DNA of 64,000 nucleotides. Source: Lacinutrix sp. WUR7. Lineage in GTDB: Bacteria > Bacteroidota > Bacteroidia > Flavobacteriales > Flavobacteriaceae. Shown in pieces: positions 34,170 through 43,708 of the stretch. The stretch spans positions 3,048,001 through 3,112,000 of the forward strand of contig NZ_CP045067.1 of NCBI RefSeq assembly GCF_016864015.1, written 5' to 3'. The notes below the pieces were generated by a model. That model ran no database searches. It worked only from the letters and a program-made list of their open reading frames with translations, and was not told the DNA's origin. The first letter of the stretch is position 1. Each line of letters starts with the position of its first letter. Both the position numbers and the translations under genes were made by a program.

Positions 34170-34177
34170 AATATTTG
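34170..34177 (+). promoter_or_regulatory. his: Candidate -7 element of the his operon (AATATTTG)
   Basis: 7 of 8 bases match TANNTTTG, placed 18 bases before the leader-peptide ATG, which would give a very short untranslated lead. There is no clear -33 TTG. Confidence 0.35.
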
Positions 34178-34194
34178 CATATATAAAAACAGAA

Positions 34195-34251
34195 ATGAAC
34201 TTTATTCAATCACATCATCATCATTTTACTACTGGCAATCAAGCGAGCTAA
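34195..34251 (+). CDS. hisL: Histidine operon leader peptide, four consecutive His codons
   Basis: ATG at 34195 to TAA at 34249-34251 encodes MNFIQSHHHHFTTGNQAS. Four His codons (all CAT) in a row, directly ahead of an intrinsic terminator and then hisG, form a classical ribosome-mediated attenuator. When charged His-tRNA is scarce the ribosome stalls on the His run and the downstream RNA folds into an antiterminator. The short ORF is not similar in sequence to enterobacterial hisL; the name is by function. Confidence 0.88.
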   Translation: MNFIQSHHHHFTTGNQAS

Positions 34252-34293
34252 AAGTGTATTGAATAAAACCAACATATTTTAAAAACCGTTTGA
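34239..34293 (+). promoter_or_regulatory. Candidate antiterminator pairing in the his leader
   Basis: TCAAGCG at 34239-34245, covering the last sense codons of the leader peptide, can pair over seven positions (one G-U) with CGTTTGA at 34287-34293, the left arm of the terminator. A ribosome that stops at the His codons leaves this segment free; one that reaches the stop codon covers it. The pairing is found by eye, and a stronger alternative may exist. Confidence 0.5.
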
Positions 34294-34314
34294 GCATCTC
34301 AAACGGTTTTTTTT
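34282..34314 (+). terminator. Attenuator terminator of the his operon
   Basis: The perfect 13-base stem AAAACCGTTTGAG / CTCAAACGGTTTT around CAT is followed by four more T. It lies 31 bases after the leader-peptide stop and 38 bases before hisG. Confidence 0.93.
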
Positions 34315-34351
34315 ATACCTATAGATTTACTCAAACACATTAAAAATTAAA

Positions 34352-35209
34352 ATGAGTAAATTAAAAATTGCAATTCAAAAATCAGGAAGACTTAACGAAG
34401 ATTCTCTTAAACTCCTTAAAGACATTGGTGTTTCTATTGATAATGGAAAAGATCAATTAAAAGCTTCTGCTAGAAATTTCCCATTAGAAGTATTTTATTT
34501 AAGAAATGGAGATATTCCACAATACCTAAAAGATGGTATTGTAGATGCTGCAATCATTGGAGAAAATGTACTTATTGAAAAAGGAGAAGGTATTCCTGTT
34601 GTAGAAAAACTAGGGTTTTCTACTTGTAAAGTGTCTATAGCCATACCAAAATCAGCATCTTACAAATCGATTCAAGATTTACAAGGAAAACGCATTGCAA
34701 CCTCTTATCCAAATACTGTTAATCAATTTTTAAAGAAAAATAATGTAGATGCACAATTGCATATCATTAATGGTTCTGTAGAAATAGCACCAAATATTGG
34801 CTTAGCCGATGCTATTGTAGATATTGTTTCTAGCGGAAGTACGTTGTTTAAAAACGGTTTGAAAGAAGTAGAAGTGCTACTAAAATCGGAAGCAGTTCTT
34901 GCTGTTTCTCCTAAAATTTCAGAGGAAAATAAAAGCATTTTAAATAAGATTCAGTTTCGATTACAATCGGTTTTAAAAGGAAGACAAAACAAATATGTGT
35001 TGCTTAATGCACCCAATGATAAGATAAAAGAAATCATTAATATCCTTCCAGGAATGAATAGTCCATCCGTTTTACCACTAGCACGAACAGGTTGGAGTTC
35101 CATTCACTCAGTAATTAATAAAAATGAATTTTGGGAAGTAATTGATGAGCTGAAAGAAAATGGAGCCGAAGGTATTTTAGTTTGCCCAATTGAAAACATG
35201 GTGATTTAA
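34352..35209 (+). CDS. hisG: ATP phosphoribosyltransferase, long form
   Basis: 285 residues, the long HisG form. The catalytic bilobed domain begins KLKIAIQKSGRLNEDSL and has the PRPP loop VDIVSSGSTLFKNGL. The last 70 residues form the ACT-like histidine-feedback domain (MNSPSVLPLARTGWSSIHSVI). Because this form is self-sufficient, no hisZ is expected and none is in the operon. It makes the first step of histidine synthesis and is first behind the attenuator. Confidence 0.96.
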   Translation: MSKLKIAIQKSGRLNEDSLKLLKDIGVSIDNGKDQLKASARNFPLEVFYLRNGDIPQYLKDGIVDAAIIGENVLIEKGEGIPVVEKLGFSTCKVSIAIPKSASYKSIQDLQGKRIATSYPNTVNQFLKKNNVDAQLHIINGSVEIAPNIGLADAIVDIVSSGSTLFKNGLKEVEVLLKSEAVLAVSPKISEENKSILNKIQFRLQSVLKGRQNKYVLLNAPNDKIKEIINILPGMNSPSVLPLARTGWSSIHSVINKNEFWEVIDELKENGAEGILVCPIENMVI

Positions 35210-35245
35210 TTACTGGTTAATACAAAGACTTTAAGATAAATAGAA

Positions 35246-36532
35246 ATGAAAACAATTGAAAATCCTAGTAAGCAAGATTGGCAAGCTATTATAGAAAGAC
35301 CAACGCAAAAGGTTAGCGATATAGAGGCTACAGTTACTAAAATATTTACCGAAATATCTCAAGAAGGCGATAAGGTTATTGCAAAATACACCGAGAAATT
35401 TGATAATGTGGTACTAGATACTATGCAGGTTTCTGCTTTAGAAATTAAAGAAGCAGCTATTAAAGTGTCTGATAATTTAAAGGTAGCCATTGGTAAAGCA
35501 AAAGCAAATATTGAAAAATTTCATGCAGCTCAAAAAACCAATAAAGTAGAAGTAGAAACTACCAATGGTGTGCTTTGTTGGCAAGAAAAGCGTGCGATTC
35601 AAAAAATAGGATTATACATTCCTGGCGGAACAGCGCCTTTGTTTTCAACCGTTTTAATGTTAGCAGTTCCTGCCCAAATAGCAGGTTGTAAAGAAATTGT
35701 TTTATGTACACCTCCAAATAAAGAAGGTAAGATTGCAAATGAAATTTTATACGCAGCACAACTTTGTGGTGTTACTAAAATATGTAAAGTAGGAGGTATT
35801 CAAGCCATTGCTGGTTTAACTTTTGGAACTGAAAGTATTCCTAAAGTTTCTAAGATTTTCGGACCAGGAAATCAATACGTAACCGTTGCAAAACAATTGG
35901 CAACAAAGCATGGTATAGCAATTGATATGCCTGCAGGACCAAGTGAATTGTTAGTAATGGCAGATGCATCGGCAAATGCCGCTTATGTGGCTTCCGATTT
36001 GTTAAGTCAAGCAGAACATGGCGCAGATAGCCAAGTAATTTTAGTTTCGGATGCTAAAGATTTTATTTCAAATGTTTCCAATGAAATAGAAAAACAATTG
36101 CTAGAGTTACCAAGAAAAGAAATTGCTACCCAAGCATTACAAAATGCAAAAGCGATTTTAATTGAAAATGCAGATGAAGCATTAGATTTTGTTAATGAAT
36201 ATGCAGCAGAGCACCTTATTATTGCAACTAGAAATAACGATTTTTTCATCGATAATATTGCCAATGCAGGTTCTGTTTTTATAGGTAATTACACACCAGA
36301 AAGCGCAGGAGATTATGCTTCCGGAACCAACCATACTTTACCTACTAACGGATTTAGTAAAGCGTATTCCGGTGTGAATTTAGATAGCTTTTTAAAGAGT
36401 ATCACCTTTCAAAAAATTAGTGAAAAAGGATTGCTAAATATTGGAAACACCATCGAGTTAATGGCAGAAGCCGAAGGTTTACAAGCACATAAAAATGCAG
36501 TTTCTATCCGATTAAAAGATTTAAAAAAATAG
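35246..36532 (+). CDS. hisD: Histidinol dehydrogenase
   Basis: 428 residues. Typical segments are GLYIPGGTAPLFSTVLMLAVPA, KIFGPGNQYVTVAKQ, DMPAGPSELLV and the zinc-site region LLSQAEHGADSQ. The C-terminal YASGTNHTLPTNG is well kept. It oxidises L-histidinol to L-histidine in two NAD steps with Zn. 36 bases follow hisG. Confidence 0.96.
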   Translation: MKTIENPSKQDWQAIIERPTQKVSDIEATVTKIFTEISQEGDKVIAKYTEKFDNVVLDTMQVSALEIKEAAIKVSDNLKVAIGKAKANIEKFHAAQKTNKVEVETTNGVLCWQEKRAIQKIGLYIPGGTAPLFSTVLMLAVPAQIAGCKEIVLCTPPNKEGKIANEILYAAQLCGVTKICKVGGIQAIAGLTFGTESIPKVSKIFGPGNQYVTVAKQLATKHGIAIDMPAGPSELLVMADASANAAYVASDLLSQAEHGADSQVILVSDAKDFISNVSNEIEKQLLELPRKEIATQALQNAKAILIENADEALDFVNEYAAEHLIIATRNNDFFIDNIANAGSVFIGNYTPESAGDYASGTNHTLPTNGFSKAYSGVNLDSFLKSITFQKISEKGLLNIGNTIELMAEAEGLQAHKNAVSIRLKDLKK

Positions 36533-36572
36533 TATCGTCATGCAGCGCGAAGCGAAGAATCGACTAAGAATA
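36533..36572. repeat. Short intergenic repeat between hisD and hisC
   Basis: The 45-base gap contains CGTCATGCAGCGCGAAGCGA followed by AGAATCGAC, GC-rich for this genome. It resembles the CGTCAT...AATC class of dispersed extragenic repeats common in Bacteroidota. Confidence 0.45.
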
Positions 36573-36577
36573 AAGAA

Positions 36578-37615
36578 ATGAAAAATAGTTTGAATATAAA
36601 TAACCTGGTTAGGGAAAACATAAAAGCATTAAAAGCCTATTCGTCTGCAAGAGATGAATTTAAAGGTACTGCAGATGTGTTTTTAGATGCAAACGAGAAT
36701 CCGTTTGGAGACTTAAATAGGTATCCAGACCCGCAACAAAAAGAGATTAAGCAAAAGTTGTCTACCATCAAAAAGGTAGAAGAAAATCAAATTTTTGTTG
36801 GTAATGGTAGTGACGAAGTTATTGATCTAGCGTTTCGTATTTTCTGTGAACCAGGAAAAGATAAGGTATTAACCTTTTCGCCAACGTACGGAATGTACGA
36901 TGTGTCTGCAAATATTAATAATATCGAAGTTATAGAACAACCGCTAATTAACGATTTTCAAATTAGCCTTAATCAATTACAACCGTATTTAGATTTTGAA
37001 GAGCTGAAAATTATTTTTATTTGCTCTCCTAATAATCCAACAGGAAATAGTATTAATCCAGAGGATATAGAATATATTTTAGAAAATTTCAACGGTATAG
37101 TAATTGTTGATGAAGCCTATATCGATTTTAGTTCGCAAGCATCCTTCATTAAAAACATAGACAAATACAATAATCTAATTGTTAGTCAGACCTTTAGTAA
37201 AGCTTGGGGTTTAGCAGGTGTTAGAGTAGGAGTTGCCTATGCAAATGAAGCTATTATTAAACTTTATAATCGTGTAAAACCACCTTATAATGTGAGTACT
37301 TTAAATCAAGATGCAGTTTTAAAAAGCTTAAATAATGTAGAGGAAGTTCATCAAAATATTGATACCATTCTTTTAGAAAGAACAAAGTTAAAAGACGCCT
37401 TAAGTGCGCTTTCTATTGTGAAAAAAGTATATCCTACAGATGCCAATTTTTTGTTGGTAGAAGTGGATAATGCTAATAAAACGTATCAATATTTAATAGA
37501 AAAAAAAGTAATTATTAGAAATAGAAATACACAAGTCGAAAATTGTATTCGTATTACCGTTGGTACGAAGGAAGAGAATGAGAAGTTAATTAGCGCATTA
37601 AAGGATATTAATTAA
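36578..37615 (+). CDS. hisC: Histidinol-phosphate aminotransferase
   Basis: 345 residues, fold-type I PLP enzyme. The segment [33 protein letters not shown] and CSPNNPTGN bind substrate and cofactor; VDEAYIDFS precedes the PLP lysine in [16 protein letters not shown]. It transfers the amino group to imidazole-acetol phosphate. Confidence 0.96.
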
Positions 37616-37622
37616 AAGATTA

Positions 37623-37634
37623 CCGCTTTCGCGG
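37623..37634 (+). repeat. Start-proximal stem-loop CCGC-TTTC-GCGG before hisB
   Basis: A perfect 4-base GC stem with TTTC loop, ending 9 bases before the hisB ATG and followed by AAACT. It shares its plan with the hairpins before efp and hisA. Confidence 0.45.
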
Positions 37635-37643
37635 AAACTAAAG

Positions 37644-38783
37644 ATGAAAAAAGTATTATTTATAGATAGAGACGGAACATTGGTATTAGAACCACCAGTA
37701 GATTATCAATTAGATAGTTTAGAGAAGTTAGAATTCTACCCAAAAGTATTTCAATATATGGCTAAAATAGCTTCAGAATTGGATTATGAATTGGTTATGG
37801 TAACCAATCAAGACGGATTAGGGACAGATTCTTTTCCAGAAGATACCTTTTGGCCTGCGCAAAACAAAGTAATAACTGCTTTTGAAAAGGAAGGTGTGCT
37901 TTTTTCTGAAATATGTATCGATAGAACTTTTTCACATGAAAATGCCGAAACTCGTAAGCCAAGAACGGGTTTACTAACCAAATATTTGGATAAAGAAAAT
38001 TATGATTTAGAAAAATCTTTTGTGTTAGGAGACCGAATTACAGATATGGAATTGGCTAAAAACCTAGGTGCTAAAGGTATTTATTTGTCCGAAAATCCGA
38101 AATTAGGAGCAGATGAAATAGAAAGTTCCAAACAAGACATTTTAGATGCTATCGCTTTAACAAGTACCGATTGGAAAGAAATATATGAGTTTCTAAAATT
38201 GGAAGATCGTGTTCAAGAGATTACTAGAAATACAAACGAAACTAAAATTTACATTAAGCTAAATTTAGATGGCTCTGGTAAAAACGATATCGATACTGGT
38301 TTATCCTTTTTCGATCATATGTTAGATCAAATTGGTCGGCATGGCGCAATGGATTTAACTATTAAAGTGGATGGTGATTTAAATGTAGATGAACACCATA
38401 CTATTGAAGATACTATGATTGCTTTGGGTGAATTATTTAATAAAGCATTAGGTAATAAATTGGGAATAGAACGTTATGGTTTTTGTTTGCCAATGGACGA
38501 CTGTTTAGCACAGGTTGCTGTTGACTTTGGAGGTAGAAACTGGTTAGAATGGGAAGCAGATTTTAAACGTGAAAAAATAGGAGATATGCCAACCGAGATG
38601 TTTTTCCACTTGTTTAAATCGTTTACAGACGGTGCTAAATGTAACTTAAATATTAAAGCGGAAGGAACCAACGAACACCATAAAATTGAAGGTATTTTTA
38701 AAGCATTTGCGAAAGCGATGAAAATGGCAGTAAAACGCGATTCTAATAAAATGTTTTTACCATCTACAAAAGGAATGTTGTAA
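37644..38783 (+). CDS. hisB: Bifunctional histidinol-phosphatase / imidazoleglycerol-phosphate dehydratase
   Basis: 379 residues. Residues 1-165 are a HAD phosphatase with DRDGTL at 8-13 and [12 protein letters not shown]. Residues 190-379 are IGP dehydratase with the metal-site repeats DEHHTIEDT and [17 protein letters not shown]. The fused form does steps 6 and 8 of histidine synthesis. Confidence 0.96.
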
Positions 38784-38790
38784 AATAACT

Positions 38791-38838
38791 TTTAGCCTTT
38801 AGATGTTAGCTATTCACTAACTTCTAAAAGCCGAAAGC
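38791..38838. repeat. Stem-loop in the hisB-hisH gap
   Basis: TTTTAG and GTTAG on the left face CTAAC and CTAAAA on the right around CTATTCA. The element fills most of the 67-base gap and has no T run for termination. Likely a short dispersed repeat. Confidence 0.4.
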
Positions 38839-38850
38839 AAAAGCCAAATA

Positions 38851-39432
38851 ATGAAAATAGTTATTATAGATTACGGAGCAGGAAATATCAAAAGCATTCA
38901 GTTTGCTTTTAACCGATTGGGATTTGATGCGGTTCTATCGAATAATCCAGAAGAGATAAAAGCTGCAGATAAAATCATTTTTCCAGGAGTAGGAGAAGCG
39001 AGTAGTGCCATGAAAATGCTTGAAGAAAGTAAGTTAGATGTATTAATTCCGACATTAAAACAACCTGTTTTAGGAATTTGTTTAGGCATGCAATTACTTT
39101 GTAAATCCACTGAAGAAGGAAACACAAAAGGATTAGGGGTTTTTGATGTAGATGTAAAACGTTTTAATTCTAGTGTAAAAGTGCCACAAATGGGTTGGAA
39201 TACGATACGTAATTTAAAATCTGATTTGTTTAAAAACATAAATGATAAAAGCTATATGTATCTTGTACATAGTTTTTATGCAGAAAATTGTAAAGAAAGT
39301 ATTGCAACAACAGACTATGATGTAGTATATGCTTCCGCATTACAAAAAGATAATTTTTATGGTGTGCAATTTCACCCAGAAAAAAGTAGTGATGCAGGAG
39401 AACAATTATTAAAGAATTTTATAGCACTTTAA
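38851..39432 (+). CDS. hisH: Imidazole glycerol phosphate synthase subunit HisH
   Basis: 193 residues, class I glutamine amidotransferase. Nucleophile Cys77 lies in [10 protein letters not shown], and the His/Glu pair is in [11 protein letters not shown]. It supplies ammonia to HisF. The start [12 protein letters not shown] is canonical. Confidence 0.96.
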
Positions 39433-39491
39433 TGTGTTTTATCCTGTTAGGTTTAAAAACCGGACAGGTATTTATATTAATTAAAAAGAGA

Positions 39492-39509
39492 TTTCCACTT
39501 TTGTGGAAA
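39492..39509 (+). repeat. Start-proximal stem-loop before hisA
   Basis: TTTCCAC-TTTT-GTGGAAA, seven perfect pairs, ending six bases before the hisA ATG at 39516. A hairpin this close to the start could limit ribosome access; it shares its plan with those before efp and hisB. Confidence 0.5.
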
Positions 39510-39515
39510 ATGCAT

Positions 39516-40244
39516 ATGAGAATAATACCAGCAATAGATATTATAGACGGAAAATGTGTTCGACTTACTAAAGGCGATTACAACACCAAAAAAATATACA
39601 ATGAAAACCCTTTAGAGGTTGCCAAACAGTTTGAAGCAGCAGGAATTCAATATTTACATTTAGTAGATTTGGATGGCGCAAAAGCGAAACACATTGTAAA
39701 CTATAAAGTATTAGAGCAAATAGCTTCTAAAACCAAATTAAAAATTGATTTTGGAGGTGGATTAAAAACAGATGAGGATTTACATATTGCTTTCAATTCT
39801 GGCGCAAAACAAATTACTGGCGGCAGTATTGCTGTGCAAGACACGAATACTTTTGACAACTGGATTTCTAAATATGGAGCACAAAAAATAATACTTGGTG
39901 CAGATTGTAGAAATGAAAAAATAGCCATTAGTGGCTGGATGGAAGAAAGCAATTTAGAAGTGATTCCTTTTATTCAAGGCTACCAGAAAAAGAACATTCA
40001 ATATGTTATTTGTACAGATATTGCCAAAGATGGTATGCTAGAAGGTCCTTCTATAGAACTGTATAAAAAGATGCTTGAAAGCTGTTCTGCTAATAATCAA
40101 ACTATTAAACTAATAGCATCAGGTGGTGTTACTACTATTGATGATATTAACTTGTTAGAAAAAATAGGGTGTGAGGCAGTTATAATTGGTAAAGCTTTAT
40201 ACGAAGGAAATATACGTTTAACCGATTTAGAAACGATCTACTAA
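39516..40244 (+). CDS. hisA: Phosphoribosylformimino-5-aminoimidazole carboxamide ribotide isomerase
   Basis: 242 residues from the ATG at 39516 ([17 protein letters not shown]), the canonical start; the frame is open back to 39432 but those 28 residues match nothing in the family. It is a TIM barrel with Asp8 as first catalytic acid and [12 protein letters not shown] in the second half. It isomerises ProFAR to PRFAR. Confidence 0.95.
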
Positions 40245-40245
40245 A

Positions 40246-41001
40246 ATGCTAGCAAAAAGAATCATTCCTTGTTTGGATATTAAAAACGGACGTACCGTAA
40301 AAGGTATTAATTTTGTTGGTTTACGAGATGCCGGAGATCCTGTTTTGCTTGCTAAAAAGTATGCGCTTCTTGGTGCAGATGAGTTGGTTTTATTAGACAT
40401 TTCAGCAACATTAGAAGGTAGAAAAACGATGCTTGATTTGGTGCTAAAAGTAGCTGAACAAGTGAATATTCCGTTTACCGTTGGAGGTGGAATTTCTTCT
40501 ATTGAAGATGTAGATGCACTTTTAAAATCTGGAGCAGATAAGGTTTCTATAAATTCTTCGGCAATTAAACGTCCAGAATTAATAAATGAATTGGCAAACA
40601 AATTCGGAAACCAATGTATTACCGTTGCAATTGATGCAAAACAGGTAGATGGAAATTGGATTGTGCATGTTGCTGGGGGAAGTATTCCTACGGAATTAGA
40701 TTTATTTTCTTGGGCTAAAGAAGCGGAAGATCGTGGCGCCGGAGAAATACTTTTTACATCCATGAATAATGATGGAACTAAAAATGGCTTTGCTAACGAA
40801 GCATTGGCTACACTTTCTACAGAACTAAATATTCCTATAATCGCTTCTGGTGGCGCTGGAAATATGGCGCATTTTGTAGATGCTTTTCATATTGGAAAAG
40901 CAGATGCGGCTTTAGCAGCTAGTGTTTTTCATTTTTCTGAAATTGAAATAAAAGATTTAAAACAAGAATTAAAGAATAATAACATAGAAGTAAGATTATA
41001 A
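40246..41001 (+). CDS. hisF: Imidazole glycerol phosphate synthase subunit HisF
   Basis: 251 residues, TIM barrel. The start [20 protein letters not shown] contains Asp11; the second catalytic Asp is in [12 protein letters not shown]. Phosphate loops VGGGISS and ASGGAGN are intact. With HisH it forms IGP and AICAR. One base separates it from hisA. Confidence 0.97.
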
Positions 41002-41014
41002 ACTTGCTGTTACT

Positions 41015-41068
41015 TCGAGCGTAGTCGGGAGGTTTTGAGTAAAACATTAAGGTCTCGACTGCGCTCGA
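41015..41068. repeat. GC-rich intergenic inverted repeat (TCGAGCG...CGCTCGA)
   Basis: TCGAGCGTAGTCGGGA at 41015-41030 is an inverse complement, with two mismatches, of TCTCGACTGCGCTCGA at 41053-41068. Its base composition stands out strongly from the surrounding AT-rich DNA. This sequence type is a familiar dispersed extragenic repeat in Flavobacteriaceae. It fills the hisF-hisIE gap. Confidence 0.65.
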
Positions 41069-41086
41069 CCAGACAAAAATTGAATT

Positions 41087-41686
41087 ATGAATATAGATTT
41101 CAATAAAAATAACGACGGATTAGTACCTGCAATCATTCAAGATGCAACCACCAATAAAGTATTGATGTTAGGGTATATGAATGCGGAAGCCTTCAGTAAA
41201 ACAAAAGATACAAAAAAGGTTACTTTTTTTAGCAGAACAAAAAAACGACTTTGGACCAAAGGAGAAGAAAGTGGTAATTTTCTAAACCTAGTAGATTATA
41301 AATTAGATTGTGATAATGACACTTTACTAATTCAAGTAAACCCAGTTGGACCAACCTGTCATAAAGGAACAGATACCTGTTGGAGTGAAGAGAATAAAGA
41401 AAGCTACGGTTTTATTTCTAAATTAGAAAACACTATTGAAAGCAGAGTGCAAGCTGGAGATTCTGAAAAATCGTATGTAGCTTCCTTATTTGCTTCAGGT
41501 ATTAATAAAGTGGCTCAAAAAGTAGGAGAGGAAGCTGTAGAAGTGGTTATTGAAGCTATGGATAACAACGACGATTTATTTTTAAGTGAAAGTGCCGATT
41601 TACTATTTCATTATTTAATGTTGCTGCAAGCGAAAGGTTATAAATTAGAAGATGTAGTTTCGGTTTTAAAAACTAGAGAAAAATAA
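41087..41686 (+). CDS. hisIE: Bifunctional phosphoribosyl-AMP cyclohydrolase / phosphoribosyl-ATP pyrophosphatase
   Basis: 199 residues. HisI part (1-105): VLMLGYMNAEAF, FFSRTKKRLWTKGEESGN and the metal/Cys segment GPTCHKGTDTCW. HisE part (110-199): SYVASLFASGINKVAQKVGEEAVEVVIEA. Steps 2 and 3 of the pathway; last gene of the operon. No strong terminator is visible downstream. Confidence 0.96.
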   Translation: MNIDFNKNNDGLVPAIIQDATTNKVLMLGYMNAEAFSKTKDTKKVTFFSRTKKRLWTKGEESGNFLNLVDYKLDCDNDTLLIQVNPVGPTCHKGTDTCWSEENKESYGFISKLENTIESRVQAGDSEKSYVASLFASGINKVAQKVGEEAVEVVIEAMDNNDDLFLSESADLLFHYLMLLQAKGYKLEDVVSVLKTREK

Positions 41687-42622: not shown

Positions 42623-43708
42623 ATGGCTCAAAAAAACCGCAAAACAACTAAGCGTAAAAAAACGTATAAAACGGTAAATTCAGTTCCTGGAACTGTTTCT
42701 TACGTAGGTGAAAAACAATCTATTGAAACTAAAATTGATATTGTAAATTATAATAAAGATGCTTGTGACTTTAGAATTTCTAATAATGTAGAAGATGCTT
42801 TTCATTTTAAAGGGCAGGAACATGTTACTTGGATTAATATTAATGGTTTAAACAATACTGCCGAAATTGAAAAATTAGGTCAGCATTATAATCTACATCC
42901 TTTAGTTCTTGAAGATATTGTGACTACAAACCAAAGAGCTAAATTAGAAGAGTATGAAGGTTACCTTTTTATTGTTTTTAAAATGCTACACTTTAAAACC
43001 GAAGATGAAATAGTTTACGAGCACATGAGTATGGTTATTGGAGAAAACTATGTACTTACTTTTCAAGAAGCAGATGGTGATGTGTTTGATGATTTAAGAG
43101 ATAGAATTAGAAATGCCAAAGGAAGAGTACGAAATGCCAAAGCTGATTATTTAATGTACACCATTTTAGATGCTGTGGTAGATAATTACTTTACGGTTAT
43201 TGAAGCCGAAGGGGATAAGATTGAAGATTTAGAAGAAACCCTTTTTATTCAAGAATCTAGCTCTAATACAACCACTACAAGCATTCAAAACCAAAAGCGT
43301 GAAATACTAAAAATACGAAGAACCGTTTTTCCGTTTCGTGAAGTAGTAAACAAATTGGAAAAATCGGAAATCGATTTTATAGAAGATAAAACCAAAAACT
43401 ATCTTCGTAATTTATATGATCACATGATACAAGTAAACGAAAGTATCGACTTGTATCGTGAAATGATTTGGGGACTTATGGATCTCTACATGACCAACAT
43501 TAGTAATAAGATGAACGAGGTCATGAAAGTGCTAACTATTATAGCAACTATATTTATTCCGCTAACATTTATTGCAGGAATTTATGGCATGAATTTTACC
43601 AATATGCCAGAGCTTTCTAATCCGTATGGCTATTATATAGTTTGGGCAGTAATGATTGTTATACTCATAATTATGTTAATTTATTTTAGAAAAAAGAAGT
43701 GGCTTTAA
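42623..43708 (+). CDS. corA: Magnesium/cobalt transporter CorA
   Basis: 361 residues. A long cytoplasmic alpha/beta and helical domain is followed by two C-terminal membrane helices; the first ends in IYGMNFTNMPEL with the signature GMN. The extreme C-terminus is basic (RKKKWL). It imports Mg2+ as a pentamer. The first 30 residues are Lys-rich and family-untypical. Confidence 0.93.
   Translation: MAQKNRKTTKRKKTYKTVNSVPGTVSYVGEKQSIETKIDIVNYNKDACDFRISNNVEDAFHFKGQEHVTWININGLNNTAEIEKLGQHYNLHPLVLEDIVTTNQRAKLEEYEGYLFIVFKMLHFKTEDEIVYEHMSMVIGENYVLTFQEADGDVFDDLRDRIRNAKGRVRNAKADYLMYTILDAVVDNYFTVIEAEGDKIEDLEETLFIQESSSNTTTTSIQNQKREILKIRRTVFPFREVVNKLEKSEIDFIEDKTKNYLRNLYDHMIQVNESIDLYREMIWGLMDLYMTNISNKMNEVMKVLTIIATIFIPLTFIAGIYGMNFTNMPELSNPYGYYIVWAVMIVILIIMLIYFRKKKWL

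Follow-up and report, generated by a model that had tools for sequence, protein, structure and literature searches.

A histidine-rich leader and a terminator before hisG suggest ribosome-mediated attenuation of the his operon in Flavobacteriales, with a possible further pairing partner near the hisG start

Introduction

What controls the his operon in Bacteroidota, where translation starts mostly without Shine-Dalgarno pairing? The question is raised by the 182 nt immediately upstream of hisG in a 64-kb window (the window being the whole stretch of DNA that was analysed), in which a short ORF with a run of histidine codons is followed by a hairpin. We read it as a transcription attenuator that works through a stalled ribosome and controls the his operon, and assign this reading a probability of roughly 0.88. 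This figure covers the attenuator and not strand G, an additional element between the terminator and hisG.

The leader region and the his operon of the window

All features described here lie on the plus strand. The leader ORF (MNFIQSHHHHFTTGNQAS and its stop, 34195–34251) comprises 18 codons, from the ATG at 34195–34197 to 34248, and ends with TAA at 34249–34251. Its four CAT histidine codons (34213–34224) form the single occurrence of CAYx4 in the window, for which shuffles gave an expectation of 0.04. Direct reading confirmed the coordinates that the first-pass annotation had given for this four-CAT, 18-codon ORF and its stop.

The ORF is followed by an intrinsic terminator, recognised from the sequence and from relatives. 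Its 5' arm is strand E (AAAAACCGTTTGAG, 34281–34294), its loop is CAT (34295–34297), and strand F (34298–34314) combines the 3' arm (CTCAAACGGTTTTT, 34298–34311) with a T run (34307–34314). In many relatives the loop has 4–6 nt and matches strand G. The stem, the T run and the hisG gene just behind them had all been noted at first pass and are present; two of the numbers changed, since the stem as read from the sequence has 14 pairs, counted into the T run, rather than 13, and the last T is separated from the hisG ATG at 34352 by 37 nt rather than 38. The minimum free energy of the 182-nt leader region was -30.6 kcal/mol (z = -4.1), and 0/200 shuffles were equally stable. A generic terminator scan of the window did not list the hairpin at 34281–34311, we think because the scan counts the stem into the T run.

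The his operon consists of eight ORFs from 34352 to 41686. The first, hisG (34352–35209), matched TIGR00070 with E = 4.3e-55, and hisD, hisC, hisB (bifunctional), hisH, hisA, hisF, and hisIE (35246–41686) each gave an NCBIfam match above the cut-off. The longest hisA ORF (39432–40244) starts 28 codons ahead of a usual-looking MRIIPAID start, and the true hisA start is therefore probably internal. HisG of the window shares 99% identity with its Lacinutrix himadriensis counterpart, in agreement with the earlier assignment to a Flavobacteriaceae-type genome.

Conservation of the leader and the terminator

We compared the regions upstream of hisG in 40 relatives, 80 named loci, loci of an order-wide sample, and 50 further regions of that sample that were hand-picked among the matches listed. 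Pooling yielded 183 hisG loci, of which 179 were distinct; only identical upstream regions were merged, and the loci are related. The first-pass annotation had made conservation of the His codons and the stem in relatives the touchstone of its reading, and both are kept. hisG was found in 27 of the 40 relatives, and a His-rich short ORF and a terminator stood upstream in 27/27. Across the distinct flavobacterial loci, a His-rich ATG leader and a terminator preceded hisG in 178/179, a count of loci passing a terminator finder that demands a T run and a leader finder that demands a His pattern. The sole locus missed by the finders (L122) has, by eye, a one-His leader, but the terminator and strands D and G are present.

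The 178 leaders have 14–20 codons, all start with ATG, and carry 2–6 histidines in a row, encoded by 739 CAT and 45 CAC codons in total. The peptides are alike within the order and end in QAS or QAR in most cases, a C-terminus that appears to be largely dictated by strand D, which is formed by the same bases. A covariance model of the leader gave one strong match (E < 1e-5) per genome among the matches listed, situated just before hisG wherever the place was known, except in the genome G367. The weaker matches that were read corresponded to a plain terminator (L341) and to the hisG locus of the genome G684 (L342), which is discussed below. At the 17 ilvD loci viewed, we saw no similar leader by eye.

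In G367, where the order-wide hisG search found no hisG, the his leader, the terminator and the first hisG codons remain on the minus strand of L340 (~1990–2225) and are followed by other sequence. By eye, this remnant stands just before a gene resembling the window gene at 42623–43708. L340 is the scar of a lost his operon.

Upstream of the leader ORF, a candidate Bacteroidota -7 element (AATATTTG, 34170–34177) differs by one mismatch from TAnnTTTG, which we take to be the -7 motif of this phylum. Transcription would start at ~34182–34186, leaving a predicted 5' UTR of roughly 10 nt. The motif is exact in 65/178 loci and has one mismatch in 113/178; it was exact in 4.4% of shuffled windows, a control that applies to exact matches only. 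The gap between the exact motif and the leader ATG has a median of 18 nt and measures 6–8 nt in 12 of the 65 loci. The predicted leader 5' UTRs are thus very short, and some leaders are perhaps leaderless.

Strand D and the A:B helix

The first-pass annotation had proposed TCAAGCG as an antiterminator half and suggested examining its co-variation with CGTTTGA. This strand, D (34239–34245), can form seven pairs, one of them G-U, with CGTTTGA at 34287–34293 of strand E. In the window alone, the pairing does not rise above the shuffle level (p = 0.21); the support for the putative D:E helix is comparative. D starts 20–29 nt past the first His codon in 174/178 loci, and ribosome geometry places such a strand just outside a ribosome that holds one of the His codons in its A site. 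In most leaders, TCAAGCG recurs as the coding stretch for the QAS or QAR at the C-terminus. Where the terminator arm is different, D often differs to match, as with CAGGCG and GTCTGA, with AGACGG in the family f5, where D spans the leader stop codon, and with CACCACGGC and GCTGTGGTG at L026.

We scored this matching at 23 loci with a variant E, using 154 standard loci as the foreign reference and leaving out L046. The locus's own D region paired better than the median foreign one in 21/23 cases (7/23 at p ≤ 0.05), which supports the proposed antiterminator half and its co-variation; the exceptions, L021 and L169, pair no better with their own D. Tested against shuffles locus by locus, D stood out in 119 of the 178 flavobacterial loci and did not in the remaining 59.

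A further helix can form between strand A (TTTATTCAAT, 34201–34210) and strand B (ATTGAATAAA, 34258–34267), over 10 bp. We set aside a major role for A:B in favour of a minor one: the helix is convincing in the window (p = 0.033) but weakly supported across loci, reaching p ≤ 0.05 in only 42/178.

Strand G before hisG

Strand G (TTTACTCAAAC, 34326–34336) lies 15 nt from the hisG start, and its pairing has p = 0.033 in the window. In many Flavobacteriales, G is complementary to the terminator 5' arm and loop jointly, and at L019, L154, and L177 it pairs over 11 bp. In the window, only CTCAAAC (34330–34336) pairs with GTTTGAG (34288–34294) of strand E, over 7 bp, because the CAT loop has drifted; the window genome is for this reason a weak place to see an effect of G. 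Since the loop takes no part in the stem of the terminator, its match to G provides independent evidence. Loops GTAAA, GACAA, and GTACA occur with TTTACTCAAAC, TTGTTTCAAAC, and TGTACTCAAAC, respectively, and longer matches of arm plus loop are formed by GCCTTGAGTTT with AAACTCAAGGC and by TGCCGAAGTGT with ACACTTAGGCA.

We quantified the loop match in two ways. With G located by its six-base core and the next five bases scored against the loop (five of the 178 loci dropped, their E core being off pattern), the match was 3.48 of 5 over 82 distinct pairs, compared with 2.62 in permuted pairs, and 0/20,000 permutations were as high. With G located by a position prior, which was drawn from the same data, it was 3.56 compared with 2.59 over 77 pairs, again with 0/20,000 as high; here four of the 178 loci were dropped for an E core off pattern and the stem of L046 was set by hand. 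The E core is paired at 6/6 positions in 144/174 loci, of which 114 also match at 4 or 5 of the 5 loop positions.

Relatedness was taken into account with tree-disjoint pairs drawn from a HisG tree of 123 loci. Under the position prior, pairs with loops differing by at least 2 bases gave 11 for, 0 against, and 7 ties (p = 0.001), and pairs with any loop difference gave 11 for, 1 against, and 13 ties (p = 0.006). The core-only anchor, which ignores position, gave 9 for, 3 against, and 13 ties (p = 0.15), a weaker figure in part because anchors are misplaced, for example at L005. At the variant-E loci, the own G region beat the median standard one in 22/23 cases (10 at p ≤ 0.05). The proposed pairing of E and loop with G is therefore supported by covariation.

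Against shuffles, G was significant in 133/177 flavobacterial loci and not in 44/177, one more of the 178 being untestable. By eye, it was seen in 3/6 further loci with a hisG start in the family f7. Outside the order, G exceeded shuffles in 0/21 testable loci; L208, which is filed in another family but has a flavobacterial-type leader, does carry G (stem set by hand). In the 115 loci with strong pairing, the distance from the end of G to the hisG start has a median of 16 nt (MAD 2; 91/115 within 12–22), whereas the spacing from terminator to G is looser (median 27, MAD 5). The spacer is shorter than 38 nt in nine loci, eight of which are without significant G, one of these being untestable. 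As in dual transcription/translation attenuators, a strand near the start codon is thus able to pair with the sensor-controlled strand.

Nine loci (L006, L030, L031, L034, L044, L047, L048, L054, and L056) have an extra small hairpin between G and the hisG start, such as CCCAC..GTGGG. In these loci, G ends 34–47 nt from the start codon.

The genome G684 (family f13; L342, identical to L346, on contig C21) still has the leader, the strands D, E, and F, and a G of 11 bp, but its hairpin lacks a U run behind it. The terminator looks inactive and G intact; the transcriptional half may have been lost and the putative translational half kept. This would separate the two layers of control, in a single genome that is incomplete (83%). 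The only other f13 genome examined gave no hisG match.

Leaders in other families

At the class and phylum level, we inspected 40 loci from 15 families, hand-picked among the matches listed, with families such as f31 and f37 left out. By pattern match alone, a short ORF containing three or more His lies within the 450 nt before hisG in 35/40 loci, representing 12/15 families; some of these leaders are doubtful, for example that of L226. The shuffle test was applied to the 23 of the 40 loci with both leader and terminator (one of them untestable for G). D was above shuffles in 19/23, mostly with other strand sequences, and the terminator often reads GGCTTACC. The family f17 (L240, L241, L242, and L243) has a His-rich leader, and no terminator was found between leader and hisG; control there may be translational or Rho-dependent.

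No His-rich leader was present in the five hisG loci read from the family f16, which has 0.6-Mb genomes. In four of them (L354, L356, L360, and L361), a TATATTTG-like element is followed within a few bases by ATG-CAT-TAA, encoding Met-His-stop, and then by a hairpin and hisG; in L363 the ATG is missing. The Met-His-stop is possibly a two-codon leader remnant.

The Bacteroid-trp family (RF01692) scored above threshold at 4/4 trpE loci (L273, L275, and L283 in relatives, and L279 in the window's own genome). These matches, together with the His-rich leaders of 12/15 families, make amino-acid attenuation look widespread among the sampled families.

Proposed mechanism and alternative explanations

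The sequence features expected of a ribosome-mediated attenuator were found here: a His-rich ORF before the operon, an intrinsic terminator between this ORF and the first gene and, from the comparison, an antiterminator strand that is exclusive with the terminator and lies just ahead of the stalled ribosome. From this anatomy, its conservation and its covariation, we infer stalling, read-through and the action of G. When charged His-tRNA is scarce, a ribosome would stall on the CAT run with its front edge just short of D. D, left free, would pair during the synthesis of E with the half of E next to the loop; this would keep the terminator hairpin from nucleating, and the polymerase would read on into hisG. 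With ample His-tRNA, the ribosome would reach the stop codon next to D and cover D, E:F would pair, and transcription would end in the U run. Pairing of A with B without a ribosome would also favour termination. On transcripts that slip past the terminator, G would block hisG translation unless D:E pairing prevented the block. Since D:E would prevent both the terminator and the block by G, one stall would set transcription and translation together.

Neither the D state nor the G state appeared in equilibrium folding in which the regions covered by a ribosome were masked, and such folding was rejected as a basis for the mechanism. E:F had a mean probability of 0.88–0.98 in every state; the mean for E:D did not exceed 0.02, a stalled ribosome included, and that for E:G was 0.06–0.07. 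Because the terminator wins at equilibrium, any action of D or G would have to be kinetic or to involve a pseudoknot, which the folding model cannot fold. The choice of structure would then fall during transcription, as in other attenuators. The E+loop:G duplex has a mean energy of -10.8 kcal/mol; set against the part of the hairpin that is opened, the mean net energy is +0.9 kcal/mol, and it falls below zero in 23% of the 115 loci. With energies about balanced, a loop-initiated invasion or a pseudoknot near the hisG start is possible, not forced.

For the action of G, we prefer translational control in cis, added to attenuation by a block of hisG translation, over pairing in trans and over the absence of a function; we hold this preference tentatively, at somewhat under even odds. 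If the terminated leader RNA instead targeted G in trans, it would block or destabilise surviving hisG mRNA in histidine-rich cells. The covariation of loop and G fits this as well as it fits pairing in cis, the loop is the very part left open in the terminated RNA, and there is a precedent in an excerpt of PMC7298713, where S. meliloti rnTrpL destabilises trpDC mRNA in trans. We nevertheless regard it as unlikely: with G in the same leader, the local concentration in cis should be far higher, and G684 keeps G though its hairpin should yield no terminated RNA. Similarly improbable to us is that G has no regulatory role and is either an inverted repeat drifting along with the terminator or a side effect of some other constraint acting on the hisG 5' UTR. 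Such a reading would account for the quarter or so of loci without significant G (45/178, including the untestable one), for the mere 7 bp in the window and for the many tree-disjoint ties (7/18 under the position prior, 13/25 with the core-only anchor), but the match of loop to G is far above permutation and the distance to the hisG start is steadier than that to the terminator.

Two further readings have very little to recommend them. G might be a DNA signal, an internal promoter or operator, with part of the operon transcribed from after the stem: TAGATTTA at 34322–34329 is one mismatch from TAnnTTTG, and a sigma-70 scan gave a 9/12 site from 34326, with total sites no more than in shuffles. 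We consider this highly improbable, as the promoter-like letters change with the loop (TTTAC, TTGTT, TGTAC, and AAAAC). Equally hard to credit is a constitutive leader and terminator, in which the terminator would serve just to stop stray transcripts and the His run would be there by chance. The dominance of the terminator in every state at equilibrium would suit it; against it stand the His codons and terminator at 178/179 loci, the spacing of D at 174/178, and the D-like pairing that other families achieve with different sequences. The first two of these observations also support the layout of ribosome-mediated his attenuation that had been recognised at first pass. 

Returning to the action of G in cis, the full scheme for Flavobacteriales, in which E and the loop would form one sensing strand with three exclusive partners (D, F, and G), a stall would set operon transcription and hisG translation, and G684 would have lost the transcriptional half, seems to us slightly less probable than the block by G taken singly. 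Should G act as we propose, the hairpin of the terminator would be the sensing half of a second, translational switch rather than a disposable stop, and the lineage without a U run would offer the two halves apart. The attenuator itself extends amino-acid attenuation of the his operon to a large phylum. Since Bacteroidota mostly dispense with Shine-Dalgarno pairing, ribosome-polymerase coupling becomes directly testable there with a natural reporter.

Comparison with known systems

The attenuator is of a known kind in a new phylum; G is the variant. No his attenuator of Bacteroidota was found in the open literature, though work by Lyubetsky and colleagues, cited in PMC4833913, may list some. 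In PMC8305728, which treats his genes of Bacteroidota, "attenuat" appears once, with reference to S. enterica and E. coli. The 2010 survey PMC2965389, in excerpt, names no leader-peptide system outside Proteobacteria and Actinobacteria except ermC. Attenuators of his operons are described in Firmicutes (Bacillus cereus group, Peptostreptococcaceae, and Erysipelotrichales), with 3–5 His in a row, a terminator and an antiterminator, in passages of PMC9413887, the main text of which lacks the word start "bacteroid". They share the plan of leader, terminator and antiterminator and belong to another phylum.

The enterobacterial his attenuator has in common with the present one a leader peptide with a His run, alternative antiterminator and terminator, and a place upstream of the his operon. 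It differs in its leader peptide and strand sequences, whereas the window has the extra strand G, a short predicted 5' UTR and no obvious Shine-Dalgarno sequence. Its Rfam family is RF00514. At the gathering score, no Rfam family matched the window, nor was the his leader among its five weak matches (E up to 5); 0/11 tested hisG loci matched any family, Bacteroid-trp included.

Bacteroid-trp, a table entry in PMC2864571, is a counterpart within the phylum. The logic is shared, its leader with a Trp run (NTWWWN) and its terminator preceding trpE; the amino acid and the sequence are other than those of the his leader. By eye, no G-like strand was seen at the Bacteroid-trp loci.

In S. meliloti, trpL is a leader ORF at the 5' end, and rnTrpL regulates mRNA in trans after transcription (PMC7298713, in part). 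The target of rnTrpL is the mRNA of another operon, whereas the third strand of the his system is part of the leader itself.

Some known leaders combine transcription and translation attenuation. The trp leader of B. subtilis with TRAP reportedly does so, and a tylosin resistance leader of B. subtilis is said to act at both layers, apparently via a stalled ribosome. Both layers, apparently again through a stalled ribosome, are also attributed to vmlR in the title of a reference in PMC12121999. Our literature search found no amino-acid attenuator with a three-partner design of D, F, and G. The sensor of the known dual-layer leaders is a protein or an antibiotic-stalled ribosome, whereas here it would be an amino-acid-starved ribosome, under which a single strand appears to take D, F, or G as its partner.
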